From contig CANQHN010000009.1 in the NCBI GenBank assembly GCA_947623745.1, forward strand, positions 1 to 64,000: a DNA stretch of 64,000 bases. Reading direction: 5' to 3'. The notes beneath the pieces are model-generated. The model did not search any database and had not been told where the DNA came from. It was given only the letters and a program-made list of their open reading frames with translations. This document shows, in pieces, positions 10,092 to 15,003 of the stretch. Each line of letters begins with the position of its first letter. Within the stretch, counting starts at the first letter, position 1. This DNA comes from an uncultured Oscillospiraceae bacterium (GTDB lineage Bacteria; Bacillota; Clostridia; Oscillospirales; Oscillospiraceae). Position numbers and translations under genes: made by a program.

Positions 10092-10649
10092 CAGCGATTC
10101 TATTATACATTCAGCGGATACCACTGGGCGCCGGAGAGCTTCCGTGTGAGGAAGGGCCTGCTCGGTTATCCCTCGAAGGAGCTTCCCCTGACATCAGAGG
10201 AACGCCACCAGGTCGGCGTCCTCTTTCTGACCGAGGGCCGCGAGGCCGCGGCGGGCTATGTCCGGCATATAGAGCGAGCCAGGGAGCGCCAGCGCCGGTG
10301 TGTGATGACCTATGGCTTTTTCGCCAAAGAGGAGTCGGGCCGGTTTGTGTACTGTCCACAGCTTACCTGCCGCTCTGACGCCGCCCTAAAGGAACGGCTG
10401 CGCTTATTCAAAAAGGTGCGCGCTGTCCTGATGGAGACAGGCGGGCGCGTCACGGTTTCAGGCCAGTGTGAATTGGACGAAAAATACCGGCCCGTGAATG
10501 TAAGAGAAAACACAGTCACAGCAGATTTCAGCCGTCCTCTCCGTATCCCCATGGGCGGCCAATTTATCCGGGACTGCCCGGAGCGGCTATACCGCCCCCG
10601 GCCAAGGCATCCAAAGAATGCCAGGAAGAATACGGCCCCGACACGGTAA
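10083..10649 (+). CDS. ICE hypothetical protein
   Basis: 188-aa ORF with AAGGAGAT RBS; its expected 5' end is also present as a truncated remnant after 8135. Confidence 0.6.
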   Translation: MKKQRFYYTFSGYHWAPESFRVRKGLLGYPSKELPLTSEERHQVGVLFLTEGREAAAGYVRHIERARERQRRCVMTYGFFAKEESGRFVYCPQLTCRSDAALKERLRLFKKVRAVLMETGGRVTVSGQCELDEKYRPVNVRENTVTADFSRPLRIPMGGQFIRDCPERLYRPRPRHPKNARKNTAPTR

Positions 10650-10775
10650 CAGCGGCGCTTGCGCCGCTGTCCCAGCAAGTACGGCATTTGGTAGTACAAA
10701 TGCCACTTGTTAGGGGCAAGCCCCTAATACCCTACCGTTCGGGCCGAAAAAAGCCCGCGCCAACCGGCGCGGGCT
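10649..10775. other. Cluster of four perfect or near-perfect hairpins (candidate oriT or structured RNA)
   Basis: ACAGCGGCGC-TT-GCGCCGCTGT; CAAGT-AC-GGCATTTG-GTAGTA-CAAATGCC-ACTTG; TTAGGGGC-AA-GCCCCTAA; AGCCCGCGCC-AACC-GGCGCGGGCT. Confidence 0.6.
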
Positions 10776-10780
10776 GCCAT

Positions 10781-11086
10781 TTAAAAAAGTCTCGCCATGT
10801 AGTCCTGACGCCCATCGAGTACACGAGTGACTTCGATATGGTTGTTCTCTACCACGCGGTAGAAAATGAGATGCTTCGAGACAGTAAGAAAACGCAGGTC
10901 TGTGTCCACCGGGTATTTGCCGTTAAGAGCCGCACCTATATATGGATGATCCGCAAGGAGCATGGCCGCGTCATATATGGACGTGGAGAACTTCTTTGCG
11001 GCGACCTTGTTTTTCAGCACATCCGCGATATATGCGCTTGTTGCGTTTATATCGTCGATGGCCGTTTTCTTAAAAAACACTCTCAT
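10781..11086 (-). CDS. RelE/ParE-family toxin
   Basis: MRVFFKKTAIDDINATSAYIADVLKNKVAAKKF...RFLTVSKHLIFYRVVENNHIEVTRVLDGRQDYMARLF; overlaps antitoxin by 4 nt. Confidence 0.85.
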   Translation of the reverse strand: MRVFFKKTAIDDINATSAYIADVLKNKVAAKKFSTSIYDAAMLLADHPYIGAALNGKYPVDTDLRFLTVSKHLIFYRVVENNHIEVTRVLDGRQDYMARLF

Positions 11087-11385
11087 TCTGCAAGCCCTAA
11101 CAATTCTCGGGTCTCAGCCTCGTCGTAAACTTCCTGGCATTGATCTCCAGCATCCAACTCACGCATGAGACGGTTAAGGGCTTTGGCCCGCACGATCTCC
11201 GCATTGCCATCGGTCACAGGAAACGGGAATCCCCCAGCGTTCAAGGACTGCTGAAAAAACACGTTTACAGCATCCGTCAGTGTCAGGCCGGTTTTCGCAT
11301 AGACCTGTTCCAGACGGCTTCGCATTTCGGGGTTCACTCGAATACGAAATGTATCTGTTTTCGGAGCGGAAACATAATTCTCCAT
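11083..11385 (-). CDS. RelB/DinJ-family antitoxin
   Basis: DTFRIRVNPEMRSRLEQVYAKTGLTLTDAVNVFFQQSLNAGGFPF. Confidence 0.85.
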   Translation of the reverse strand: MENYVSAPKTDTFRIRVNPEMRSRLEQVYAKTGLTLTDAVNVFFQQSLNAGGFPFPVTDGNAEIVRAKALNRLMRELDAGDQCQEVYDEAETRELLGLAE

Positions 11386-11465
11386 ACTTGCCACCTCCCT
11401 GTAGAGCCAATATATCATGTCCCGGGGATAAAGTCAATATGTGTAGCTACGTTGTTGCTACATTT

Positions 11466-11488
11466 TTGCGTCTCAAATTGAGACGTAT
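11466..11488. repeat. ICE palindrome copy 3
   Basis: TTGCGTCTCAAATTGAGACGTAT; core identical, outer arm degenerate. Confidence 0.9.
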
Positions 11489-11510: not shown

Positions 11511-11819
11511 ATGCGGACACGAAATAAGCACGTCAGTGTATGGCTGACTGACCAGGAACATCAGCATTTGAAAGAGCAGGCCGAGCTGTCCGGCCTGGGC
11601 ATCGACCCTTTTATTCGCCGCCTGATCCTGGGCATGGACCTGCGCCCCCGGCCCCCCGATGTGTACGCCGCCCTGCTGCGGGAGCTGTCCGCTATCGGAA
11701 ACAACATCAACCAGCTGGCACACCAGGCCAACGCCAGGGGCAGGGCCGCCCCGGAGGAGATCAGCGAGGCGGCCCGGTTGGTGCGGCAGGCGTGGCGGAT
11801 GGTAAAAGAGAGCCTGTAA
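11511..11819 (+). CDS. mobC: Relaxosome accessory protein MobC
   Basis: RTRNKHVSVWLTDQEHQHLKEQAELSGLGIDPFIRRLILG...ELSAIGNNINQLAHQANARG. Confidence 0.85.
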   Translation: MRTRNKHVSVWLTDQEHQHLKEQAELSGLGIDPFIRRLILGMDLRPRPPDVYAALLRELSAIGNNINQLAHQANARGRAAPEEISEAARLVRQAWRMVKESL

Positions 11820-13180
11820 TGGCCTACGATAAAATTATTGCCATTCGCTCCCGGCTGGATCATTGTGTCGGCTATGTGCTGAACCATGAAAAGACCAGCC
11901 TGGCCTCCGCGCTGGACTATATCGGCCGGGAGGAAAAAGTAACGCTGCCGGATGGTAACGCGGTATTGGAAACCGCCCTCAACTGCCAACTGGATACCGC
12001 CTACCAGGATATGATGGAGACCAAGCGCCGCTGGGGAAAGACCGGCGGCGTCCTCGGTTTCCACCTGATCCACTCCTACGCCCCCGGTGAGGTCGCGCCG
12101 GAACAGGCCCACGCCATCGGCGTGGAATTTGCGTCCCGCCTGCTGGGGGATCGTTATGAGACGGTCATTTCCACACACCTGGACCGGGACCATCTGCATT
12201 GTCACATCCTGTTCAACTCGGTATCCTTCGTGGATGGCCGGAAATACCGCAATACCTTCAAGGACTACTTTGGAGATATTCGCGGCATCTCCAACGAGAT
12301 AAGTCATGCTCACGGCCTGTCGGTCATTGAGCCGGGCGGAAGCGGAAAGCACTATGCGGAGTGGAGCGCGGAGACCCAGGGCAAGCCAACTCTGCGGGGC
12401 CTGGTCCGTCAGGATATAGACGCCGCCATCGCAGCGAGCTACACCAGCAAGACCTTCTGGCAGGAGCTGGCCCGGATGGGCTACACCGTCAAGCGCGGCC
12501 CCAATGTAAAGCATACCGCCGTGAAGCCGCCGGGCGGCCAGCGGTTTCTCCGCCTGGACAGCCTGGGAGACGGCTACACCGAGGACAGCATCCTGTCCCG
12601 CTTGTCCGCCGCCCGCTCCGGCGGGGCCACAGCGCTCAACCCGGCGCATCCCGTAGTTCAATGGCTGACCCCAGGCCGGAGATACCGGCCCCAAGGCAGA
12701 TTTCCCAGCAGGCCGCGCAGGCTGAAAGGGTTCCGCGCCCTTTACTTCAAATACCTCTGCCTGCTGGGGGCGGTTCCCCGGCGGCGAACCAAGGGGCGGC
12801 GGGCCAGCGTATCCCGGACGGAGATCATCAAGTTTGACCGCTACCAGGAGCAGTTCCAATATCTGATGAAAAATCAAATTGAGACGGCGGAGCAGCTTTC
12901 CATGCAGTATGACGCGCTGCAAGCGGAGATCGACGCCCTGGCGGGCCATCGGAAAACCCTTTACAAAGTCCGCCGCACTTTGGGAGACAGCAGCACCGAT
13001 GATGAAATCACCAAAATCACGGACCGTATGCGGATGCTGCGCCGGGAGCTGAAATTGTGCGCCCGCATTGAGGGCGACCTGCCTGCGGTCCGGGCCGGAG
13101 CAGACGCCCAGCGACCAGCCGTTCCCGGCAGGCCAGGCGAAAAAGGAATCAAGAAATCCACACAGGAAAAAGGGAGGTGA
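11819..13180 (+). CDS. mobA: MobA/VirD2-family relaxase
   Basis: ISTHLDRDHLHCHILFNSVSFVDGRKYRN (HxDxxHxH type motif); ATG overlaps mobC stop. Confidence 0.9.
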   Translation: MAYDKIIAIRSRLDHCVGYVLNHEKTSLASALDYIGREEKVTLPDGNAVLETALNCQLDTAYQDMMETKRRWGKTGGVLGFHLIHSYAPGEVAPEQAHAIGVEFASRLLGDRYETVISTHLDRDHLHCHILFNSVSFVDGRKYRNTFKDYFGDIRGISNEISHAHGLSVIEPGGSGKHYAEWSAETQGKPTLRGLVRQDIDAAIAASYTSKTFWQELARMGYTVKRGPNVKHTAVKPPGGQRFLRLDSLGDGYTEDSILSRLSAARSGGATALNPAHPVVQWLTPGRRYRPQGRFPSRPRRLKGFRALYFKYLCLLGAVPRRRTKGRRASVSRTEIIKFDRYQEQFQYLMKNQIETAEQLSMQYDALQAEIDALAGHRKTLYKVRRTLGDSSTDDEITKITDRMRMLRRELKLCARIEGDLPAVRAGADAQRPAVPGRPGEKGIKKSTQEKGR

Positions 13181-13185
13181 AGTCA

Positions 13186-13809
13186 ATGGATGTAAGCGGA
13201 GAAGCCGCCGATGTGATGGTAAAGGAAAGTATGCAGATCACCGCGGAGAGCATCAAGCTGCTGGCGGCGGGGAGCAAAAATCTGGCGGCGCTCCTTTGGG
13301 CGCTGGCCCAGGACAACAAGAAGCTGGTAGGCAAAACCAACATGGGCCGCCTGCTCCGGGAGGGTAAGGAGCTGAAGGTATTTCGCATCAAAGAGAGCGA
13401 TTTGCCGGAGTTCCGGGCCTTTGCCAAAAAGAACGTGCTGTTTGCCGCCGTCAAGGACACCCGGCAGACAGACGGCATGATCGACCTGGTGACGAATGTG
13501 GATTTTGTACCCCAGGTCAACCTGTTTATGGAGCGCCGGGGCTACCACGTCCCGGAACGTGGTACAGAGGACGCCGCGCCAAAAAAAGCCGGCCCCCGCG
13601 CTCAGCGAGACAGCTCCTCACCACAGCGCGGGAGTGGATCGAGGCCAACGCAGGAGCGGACGACGAGGACGATGAATACGGAGACACCGACTACTGAAAA
13701 GCCTTCTGTAAAAGCTCGCCTGGACGCCCTGCGGGCCGCATCCGAGAGTATGAAGCAGAGCGGACCCACCCGAACGCCCAGGAGGACCGCCCCAAAGAAA
13801 ACACGATAA
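13186..13809 (+). CDS. PcfB-like (DUF3801) protein
   Basis: VKESMQITAESIKLLAAGSKNLAALLWALAQDNKKLVGKTNMGRLLREGKELKVFRIKESDLPEFRAFAKKNVLFAAVKD. Confidence 0.8.
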   Translation: MDVSGEAADVMVKESMQITAESIKLLAAGSKNLAALLWALAQDNKKLVGKTNMGRLLREGKELKVFRIKESDLPEFRAFAKKNVLFAAVKDTRQTDGMIDLVTNVDFVPQVNLFMERRGYHVPERGTEDAAPKKAGPRAQRDSSSPQRGSGSRPTQERTTRTMNTETPTTEKPSVKARLDALRAASESMKQSGPTRTPRRTAPKKTR

Positions 13810-13825
13810 GGAGGGATTCACCCCA

Positions 13826-14689
13826 ATGGCAAATCTGGAGCAGCTTATTACAAAAAAGGCCGCCGCGGATACCCAGTGGAAAGAGCAGCGTCAGGCGGAA
13901 CGGGAAAACGCCGTCGCTATGCAGGACGCTGGCGTGACGGAGATCACCACCAGCCCGGAGGCATACGCCCGTTACCTGGACATGCAGGGGGACAACCCCA
14001 CATACAGCGCCGGGAATATTGCCCTGGCGATGCTCCAGGACCCGGAGGCCACCACCATCGGCACCCCCGACCGCTGGCGCACCCTGGGCCGCTCCGTCAT
14101 GGATACGGAGAAAAGCAAGGGGTTCAAGATTTTCGCCCGGCTGCACGGCCGGGGCTACGCCCTCGCGGACGCCTACGATATCTCCCAGACCGTGGGCCGG
14201 GAGGTCAGAAGGCCGGTCGTCCGGGAAAACTCCAAGGAGATGGAGACGGCCCTTGCCGCTGTCCTCAACTACGCAGTCGTCCCCGTCGTGGCGGACCGGG
14301 AGCTGCCTGTTGCGGCCTACTATGACAGCCGGAACATGGAGCTGGCCATCAACCCGGACTTTCCGGATGCAGAAGCATTCTCCGCCATCGCCGCCGAGAT
14401 CGCCCACGCCCGTATTCATGGGAAGGGTATCAATCACGGTTATGACCGAAGCGAGTGCGACCTGGATGCCCAAAGCGTTTCCTACATCCTCTGCCGCCGC
14501 TTTGGGATCAAGCGGGACCTGCCTGATATGACAAAACTGCCCGAACTGTATGAGGGCTACGATTCCCAGCAGCGCAGGCAGAGTCTGGATAGTATCCAGG
14601 ACATGAGCAAACAGATCGGCGGGTCCATTGAAAGGGGCATCACGCCCCAGCAGCGGACACGGGTGCCTGTCCACCGGCCTGTCCGATAA
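13826..14689 (+). CDS. ArdC/LtrC-like protein
   Basis: YLDMQGDNPTYSAGNIALAMLQDPEATTIGTPDRWRTLGRSV; degenerate AAEIAHARIH motif. Confidence 0.5.
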   Translation: MANLEQLITKKAAADTQWKEQRQAERENAVAMQDAGVTEITTSPEAYARYLDMQGDNPTYSAGNIALAMLQDPEATTIGTPDRWRTLGRSVMDTEKSKGFKIFARLHGRGYALADAYDISQTVGREVRRPVVRENSKEMETALAAVLNYAVVPVVADRELPVAAYYDSRNMELAINPDFPDAEAFSAIAAEIAHARIHGKGINHGYDRSECDLDAQSVSYILCRRFGIKRDLPDMTKLPELYEGYDSQQRRQSLDSIQDMSKQIGGSIERGITPQQRTRVPVHRPVR

Positions 14690-14703
14690 GGCCCGGAACC
14701 TGG

Positions 14704-14864
14704 GGGGCGTTCTCCCTGCGGGGGAGGATAATCTGCCGCCCGTCCCCCGTCAAGGCCGGGCGATTGCTAACACAATCGCCCGCGAGCCGGCCAGTCTGCG
14801 GACTGGCCGGGCCTTGACCGGGGCCGTTCGGCGGATTATGCAGTTATCAAGGGGGAAACGCCCC
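14704..14864 (+). ncRNA. Candidate multi-helix structured RNA (five nested or branched stems)
   Basis: GGGGCGTT/AACGCCCC (14704/14857); ATAATC/GATTAT (14728/14834); CCCC-x-GTCAAGGCC/GGCCTTGAC-x-GGGG (14744/14810); GGGCGATTG-CTAACA-CAATCGCCC (14758); CCGGCCAGTC-TGCG-GACTGGCCGG (14787). Confidence 0.6.
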
Positions 14865-14888
14865 AAAAGCCGCCAGTTGGCGGCTTTT
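14865..14888 (+). terminator. Intrinsic terminator directly after the structured region
   Basis: AAAAGCCGCC-AGTT-GGCGGCTTTT. Confidence 0.8.
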
Positions 14889-14974
14889 GCTATCCTGGAA
14901 GCGCGGCGCTCCGCCGGAGCCTCCAGCGGTCCTCACAGCGCCCGCCGCAATCCAACGGCGGGGCGGTTGCTTTG

Positions 14975-15003
14975 GAAATGCGTCTCAATTTGAGACTCAT
15001 TTC
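14975..15003. repeat. 29-bp ICE palindrome copy 4
   Basis: GAAATGCGTCTCAATTTGAGACTCATTTC. Confidence 0.95.

Follow-up and report, generated by a model that had tools for sequence, protein, structure and literature searches.

A covarying three-way junction linked to an oriT-like site in mobilization modules of Oscillospirales, a candidate single-strand origin

We describe a discrete structured element, termed S, in the mobilization module of an ICE within a 64,000-nucleotide stretch of DNA from an uncultured Oscillospiraceae bacterium (hereafter the window, meaning the whole stretch analysed). S forms a predicted three-way junction whose fold is under selection. As judged from sequence comparison, S probably acts in cis as single-stranded DNA in one way or another; it is most likely a hairpin element of the transferred strand serving as a single-strand origin (sso), a reading to which we assign a probability of about 0.5.

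Organization of the mobilization module

The ICE gene order is O, MobC, relaxase, DUF3801, orfU, S, T, P, orfD1, sortase and T4SS genes, where O is the oriT-like site described below. The window contains the following features.

11468–11486: second copy of palindrome P, just upstream of MobC
11511–11819, plus strand: MobC/NikA-like accessory protein (Pfam NikA-like, 2.8e-17)
11792–13180, plus strand: MobA/VirD2-type relaxase (Pfam Relaxase, 8.4e-34)
13177–13809, plus strand: DUF3801 protein (domain search)
13826–14689, plus strand: orfU, without a Pfam or NCBIfam match, its stop right before S
14702–14864, minus strand putatively folded: element S, 163 bp (fold, covariation, wobble pattern)
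14865–14888, plus strand: element T, a terminator-like hairpin directly after S, AAAAGCCGCC-AGTT-GGCGGCTTTT with A4/T4 flanks
14976–15002: palindrome P, AAATGCGTCTCA-ATT-TGAGACTCATTT, located after S and kept there in homologues

S directly follows the stop codon of orfU and extends to the start of T. T has the makings of an intrinsic terminator, namely a GC-rich hairpin followed by a T run, which is short (four T). It is kept in most homologues; the T run has been lost in loci L085 and L106, and the hairpin is absent from L091 and L093/L094. T would end the mobilization transcript and perhaps also a primer RNA.

In addition, a palindrome of the form GCGTCTCA-AWT-TGAGACGC occurs at eight places over 33 kb of the window (positions 1753, 5296, 11468, 14980, 18136, 21741, 29326 and 35140), giving 16 matches counting both strands versus 0.37 expected. 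Homologues keep copies of this P family after S and before MobC, and the family is possibly an element-wide operator or partition site. A conserved TG-n-TATnCT-GGG motif, resembling an extended -10, follows T at 14889–14900 of the window and in many ICE copies. Between O and MobC, the segments 10781–11086 and 11083–11418 (minus) encode, as judged by reading, RelE/ParE-like and DinJ/RelB-like proteins, apparently a toxin-antitoxin insertion. At loci L112 and L117, orfU is fused to a DUF3991/Toprim protein (checked), and the same arrangement is found in L113, L114 and L116.

Predicted fold of S

S consists of an outer stem, a second stem, a conserved GTCAAGG/CCTTGAC stem and two hairpins, arranged as a three-way junction with the following parts.

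14704–14711 GGGGCGTT with 14857–14864 AACGCCCC: outer stem, 5' and 3' arms (read in the sequence, RNAfold, covariation)
14728–14733 ATAATC with 14834–14839 GATTAT: second stem (read in the sequence)
14744–14757 with 14810–14823: basal stem of the junction, with one C.C mismatch (read in the sequence, alignment)
14758–14781: hairpin 1, 9 bp, GGGCGATTG..CAATCGCCC, with strong covariation; a second subfamily lacks it or has it replaced
14787–14810: hairpin 2, 10 bp, CCGGCCAGTC..GACTGGCCGG (read in the sequence, covariation)

The two hairpins are joined by a single-stranded GCGAG linker that is nearly constant in the alignment, and the GTCAAG/CTTGAC core pairs of the basal stem are invariant in 32 of 32 aligned sequences. 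RNAfold gave −133.1 kcal/mol for positions 14690–14900, compared to −96.9 ± 4.9 for shuffled sequences (z = −7.35; 0 of 200 as good), and returned the same three-way junction as that read by eye. The initial annotation had placed the nested stems, the two perfect hairpins and the terminator-like hairpin at these same coordinates, with which the computed fold agrees. The reverse strand folds to an equally extreme degree (z = −7.56), because S is nearly palindromic. Using DNA parameters, S as single-stranded DNA is predicted to form stem-loops of −57.5 (plus) and −58.8 (minus) kcal/mol.

A 121-residue ORF starting with TTG traverses S, and no annotated-looking ORF explains it. The TTG ORF is an unlikely explanation, since the lengths of homologous elements differ by non-multiples of three; the earlier view was likewise that coding does not account for S. 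S also lies outside Rfam, consistent with the initial failure to assign it to a known class: against Rfam 15 no family reached its gathering cut-off (only a tRNA elsewhere did), and the best weak matches of a permissive scan scored 13–19 bits against cut-offs of 39–197, which is chance level. Searching plasmid and phage collections with blastn yielded no relatives of S. A search among open-licence papers turned up no description of S, which is weak evidence of novelty, and no paper on oriT in Oscillospiraceae ICEs.

Homologues and covariation of S

A DNA search of 149 related genomes revealed 11 clear matches to S, the window's included, four of which came reversed owing to the near-palindrome and were turned before aligning. 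With covariance model R1, matches to S came from 11 of the 64 genomes examined for the genus (E ≤ 0.001; two weak) and from 11 of the 396 examined for the order (E ≤ 0.01; some weak); of 392 genomes of the class, that of the window was the sole one with S. Among named genomes, 53 loci hold relatives of orfU, from Pseudoflavonifractor, Flavonifractor, Oscillibacter, Colidextribacter, Dysosmobacter, Agathobaculum, Acutalibacter and uncultured relatives, and S directly follows orfU in 45 of the 53 (two cut by a contig end). Altogether, S homologues are present in tens of Oscillospirales elements.

The covariation alignment comprises the window and 31 sequences not used for deriving the structure. 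In this alignment, 90.1% of cells pair, and compensatory double changes occur in 31 of 49 pairs. Doubly changed cells number 152, compared to 51.4 ± 5.5 after shuffling, with a covariation score of 0.266 against 0.104 ± 0.007. Once the partner is slid by 1–3 columns, pairing drops to 31–48%. The fold of S is under selection. The initial annotation had described a discrete multi-helix element in an ICE with a terminator-like hairpin behind it, and had named missing covariation among homologues, or a match to an Rfam family, as what would count against it; S withstands both checks, and the element and its conservation are borne out.

A second subfamily of S has no hairpin 1, which is therefore not essential to the family. 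At L143 (6901–7066), the 3' half of S is apparently replaced by other sequence, possibly a broken copy.

The oriT-like site O

About 4 kb upstream of S in the window lies a block, termed O, with the anatomy of an oriT.

About 10646–10735 (10649–10732): O block, consisting of hairpin A, an inverted repeat and hairpin B
10649–10670, plus strand: hairpin A, with homologue mismatches mostly G.T on plus
10676–10709, minus strand: core inverted repeat, GCAAGTACGGCATTTG..CAAATGCCACTTG, oriT-like
10710–10727, minus strand: hairpin B, TTAGGGG..CCCCTAA

The consensus of the inverted repeat is GCAAGyAyG-nCATTTG..CAAATGn-CTTG. The anatomy of O, together with its position before MobC and the relaxase, suggests that O is the oriT; the putative nic would be a minus-strand site where the inverted repeat has its CTTGC end. 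The terminator flank GCTATCCTGG had been considered as an RP4-like nic site, an idea given up on the discovery of O. With 41 of 396 genomes of the order carrying it (E ≤ 0.001, many weak), O has a wider distribution than S and could serve to find relaxase-less mobilizable elements.

Linkage of S to O and the mobilization genes

For counting the linkage, 39 distinct S cores were gathered by motif search. O lies upstream on the same strand, 0.1–5 kb away, in 31 of them; the other eight, for which no O was found, are on contigs with little upstream sequence. None of the 39 has O downstream of S or on the other strand. Overall, the distance from O to a downstream S is 0.1–8.4 kb, the map orientation of S is always that of O and the mobilization genes, and the second S subfamily has the same linkage. 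Seen from O, S lies within 0.1–8.4 kb of every strong site (≥71 bits) of the genus, contig-end sites left aside (17 of 17), and of 10 of 11 further strong sites in the order sample, the exception being G453:C1. Weaker O-like sites (30–64 bits), widespread in the order, have no recognizable S; the exceptions among weak sites are L214, at 29.9 bits, and L226, with a marginal match upstream of its O. Sliding-window folding downstream of distant O-like sites gave strong folds, among which S was recognizable only in L214. Thus, S is not required for every O, because the distant O-like sites and G453:C1 are without it.

Small elements have the order RepA_N, O, MobC and S, with cargo and recombinases (L076, L079, L080 and L082–L084), and contain no relative of the window relaxase in the stretch examined. 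One of them, L080 (G000:C26, 2896–12791), is a second, small element of this kind in the window's own genome. It encodes RepA_N (6.8e-28), a NikA-like MobC, a tyrosine integrase, a large serine recombinase and a 1541-residue ORF, and no relative of the window relaxase is found within the 14 kb read. In L075, L081, L091 and L214, the last being divergent, O and S adjoin without a mobilization gene between them. The small mobilizable elements thus retaining S have no recognizable relaxase, and some are without MobC as well.

Natural deletions point in the same direction. Five loci (L112, L113, L114, L116 and L117), mutually related and hence representing few independent events, keep orfU, orfD1 and the sortase, lack S, and have no MobC, relaxase, DUF3801 or O within 6 kb upstream. 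L109 and L110 are also without S, but the upstream part of their contigs is too short for a verdict. S belongs to the mobilization module and is not merely the end of orfU.

The linkage bears on two alternative readings. As S is near-palindromic and a genome can hold more than one copy (at most five, in G006), it could be a chance or selfish palindrome of the REP/MITE type, or a decaying remnant. However, S shows heavy compensatory change, and every copy examined that has enough flank sits in a mobilization module and shares its strand with O; none of them was a dispersed copy in an unrelated context, as expected of a REP or MITE. A chance palindrome is ruled out by the covariation, and the reading as a whole is hardly credible. 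The second alternative is that S serves the excised element in replication or as a site acting in double-stranded form, such as part of an origin, a partition site or a resolution site, tied to RepA_N. Indeed, the small elements encode RepA_N beside O and S, and the window has a RepA_N relative at 807–1436. In the window ICE, however, this gene is about 13 kb from S, which stays with the mobilization genes, and duplex sites would not give the opposite wobble patterns of neighbouring hairpins described below. We consider this reading very unlikely.

Wobble pattern and the putative folded strand

G.U or G.T pairs are tolerated on the working strand of a hairpin, and the same change appears as A.C on the other strand. 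On the plus strand, the departures from pairing in the S core comprise 28 A.C cells versus 3 G.T, leaving out the outer stem, in which bulges shift the register and the bias is not seen. Among distinct hairpins, with related sequences treated as separate, hairpin 1 has 11 A.C versus 1 G.T on plus and hairpin 2 has 2 versus 0. The tree-corrected minimum for S on plus is 19 A.C versus 4 G.T (p = 0.0026, changes counted as independent), in a test that is alignment-based and involves few events. Free folding of 51 distinct S cores gave 4 G.U pairs as plus and 30 as minus, and per core G.U favours minus in 24 and plus in 3; the corresponding counts on O were uninformative.

The inverted repeat of O behaves like S, with about seven A.C and no G.T on plus, as does hairpin B with about four and none. 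By contrast, hairpin A has the opposite pattern of 34 G.T versus 8 A.C (overlapping variants counted). A plain uniform mutation bias is thus unlikely, since hairpin A leans opposite to S and the O inverted repeat. We infer that minus is probably the folded strand for both S and the O inverted repeat. At first, plus had been taken as the transferred strand (CTTG^TTAGGGG), a view that the wobble counts led us to abandon. Such a comparison of wobble polarity may be a cheap guide to the working strand of a hairpin element.

The same counts bear on the possibility that S acts as RNA, being the plus-strand structured 3' end of the mobilization transcript with T as its terminator, and functioning in stability, attenuation, readthrough control or as a released small RNA. 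The strong RNA fold of S would suit such a role, as would its position directly after orfU and, in most ICEs and IMEs, before a terminator-like hairpin. Nevertheless, changes in the S core avoid G.U on plus and show A.C, S is kept without a preceding mobilization gene in L075, L081, L091 and L214, and T is missing in L091 and L093/L094. An RNA from the minus strand, on the other hand, would have to cross T before reaching S. An RNA role therefore appears rather unlikely. A free ncRNA, the first choice of the initial annotation, is likewise the weaker reading: S tracks O even where no gene intervenes and is missing from loci without the mobilization module, and its wobble changes fit the minus strand whereas T would serve only a plus transcript. 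The single-stranded DNA role that had been offered as an alternative to the ncRNA fits better. Its single-strand origin part is retained, whereas its oriT part is less likely, given O, a separate oriT-like site about 4 kb upstream.

Proposed function of S

We propose the following course for S as a single-strand origin. The relaxase and MobC would nick O, as suggested by gene content and the anatomy of the site. As a general rule, the relaxase lies in the lagging region (PMC11541004); together with the strand result, this rule makes it likely that the minus strand is transferred and that S lies upstream of nic, so that the relaxase, MobC and S would enter late. Once single-stranded, S may fold in the cell into the junction with its two hairpins. 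Host RNA polymerase or primase could use this fold to make a plus-sense primer running toward T, the hairpin of which may end the primer. DNA polymerase would then copy the second strand, with S as the sso. Small mobilizable elements would retain O and S because both are needed in cis, with the relaxase and the pore provided by a helper.

S might also be a cis-acting DNA site of the relaxosome or of transfer other than an sso, for example a binding or loading site for MobC, the relaxase or the coupling protein, an aid to termination or re-circularization, or a single-strand promoter. The linkage of S to O and the mobilization genes, its sharing of the strand pattern of the O inverted repeat and its retention in small elements would fit such a site. 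However, an O–S distance of 0.1–8 kb is unusual if S must touch the relaxosome, and single-strand promoters of the Frpo type have been described in the leading region (PMC11541004), whereas S is putatively lagging. We thus regard a transfer site of this sort as somewhat unlikely. More broadly, and tentatively, it is possible that S and O form a two-part cis package whose covarying junction acts on the transferred strand in an undescribed way, for example as a strand-specific loading site or as a priming structure that sets the host range. Such a package would be spread among gut Oscillospirales by ICEs as well as by IMEs that lack a relaxase.

Second-strand synthesis is poorly known for ICEs, and before sso1 virtually nothing was known on how the transferred single-stranded DNA of an ICE is made double-stranded (PMC4595007). 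As a putative sso, S provides a compact and strongly conserved candidate with a matched oriT-like site, present both in ICEs and in relaxase-less elements of gut bacteria, and thereby opens this step to experiment. Moreover, S and O give two sequence models for finding mobilizable elements without a relaxase.

Comparison with known systems

Like S, sso1 of ICEBs1 and the pTA1060/pBAA1-type ssos are about 200 bp in length, non-coding, contain several stem-loops when single-stranded and are located downstream of the relaxase gene, immediately so in the case of sso1 (PMC4595007). Despite this resemblance, S has no sequence or model similarity to the sso of pTA1060, a relative of ICEBs1 sso1; a full-model scan of the pTA1060 sso region with S gave a best score of 6.5 bits (E = 0.29), which is no match. 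The CS-6 motif TAGCG[AT] marks ssoA-type origins. It is absent from S and from the pTA1060 sso as well, hence it is not diagnostic of all ssos. If S is an sso, it would represent a new sequence family of a known kind. S would be located upstream of nic, as in most rolling-circle plasmids, where the sso is usually upstream of the nick site, whereas ICEBs1 sso1 is downstream of oriT in terms of transfer (PMC4595007). This geometry, opposite to that of ICEBs1, counts against the sso reading.

The Frpo/ssi elements resemble the proposed S in that folded single-stranded DNA is used by a host polymerase for transcription or priming (PMC11541004). They differ in being located in the leading region and having promoter hexamers in the stem, whereas S is putatively lagging with no promoter match demonstrated. 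T shares the anatomy of intrinsic terminators, whereas S, a three-way junction of 163 bp, does not. In addition, the O–S elements are similar to relaxase-less IMEs, namely the MGIs that use an ICE-like oriT and hijack the relaxase of a helper (PMC5704250). Like these, the O–S elements are small and retain sites needed in cis, and they would likewise depend on a helper relaxase. Compared to the described MGIs, which share the oriT, the O–S elements also keep a second structured element, RepA_N and often MobC.
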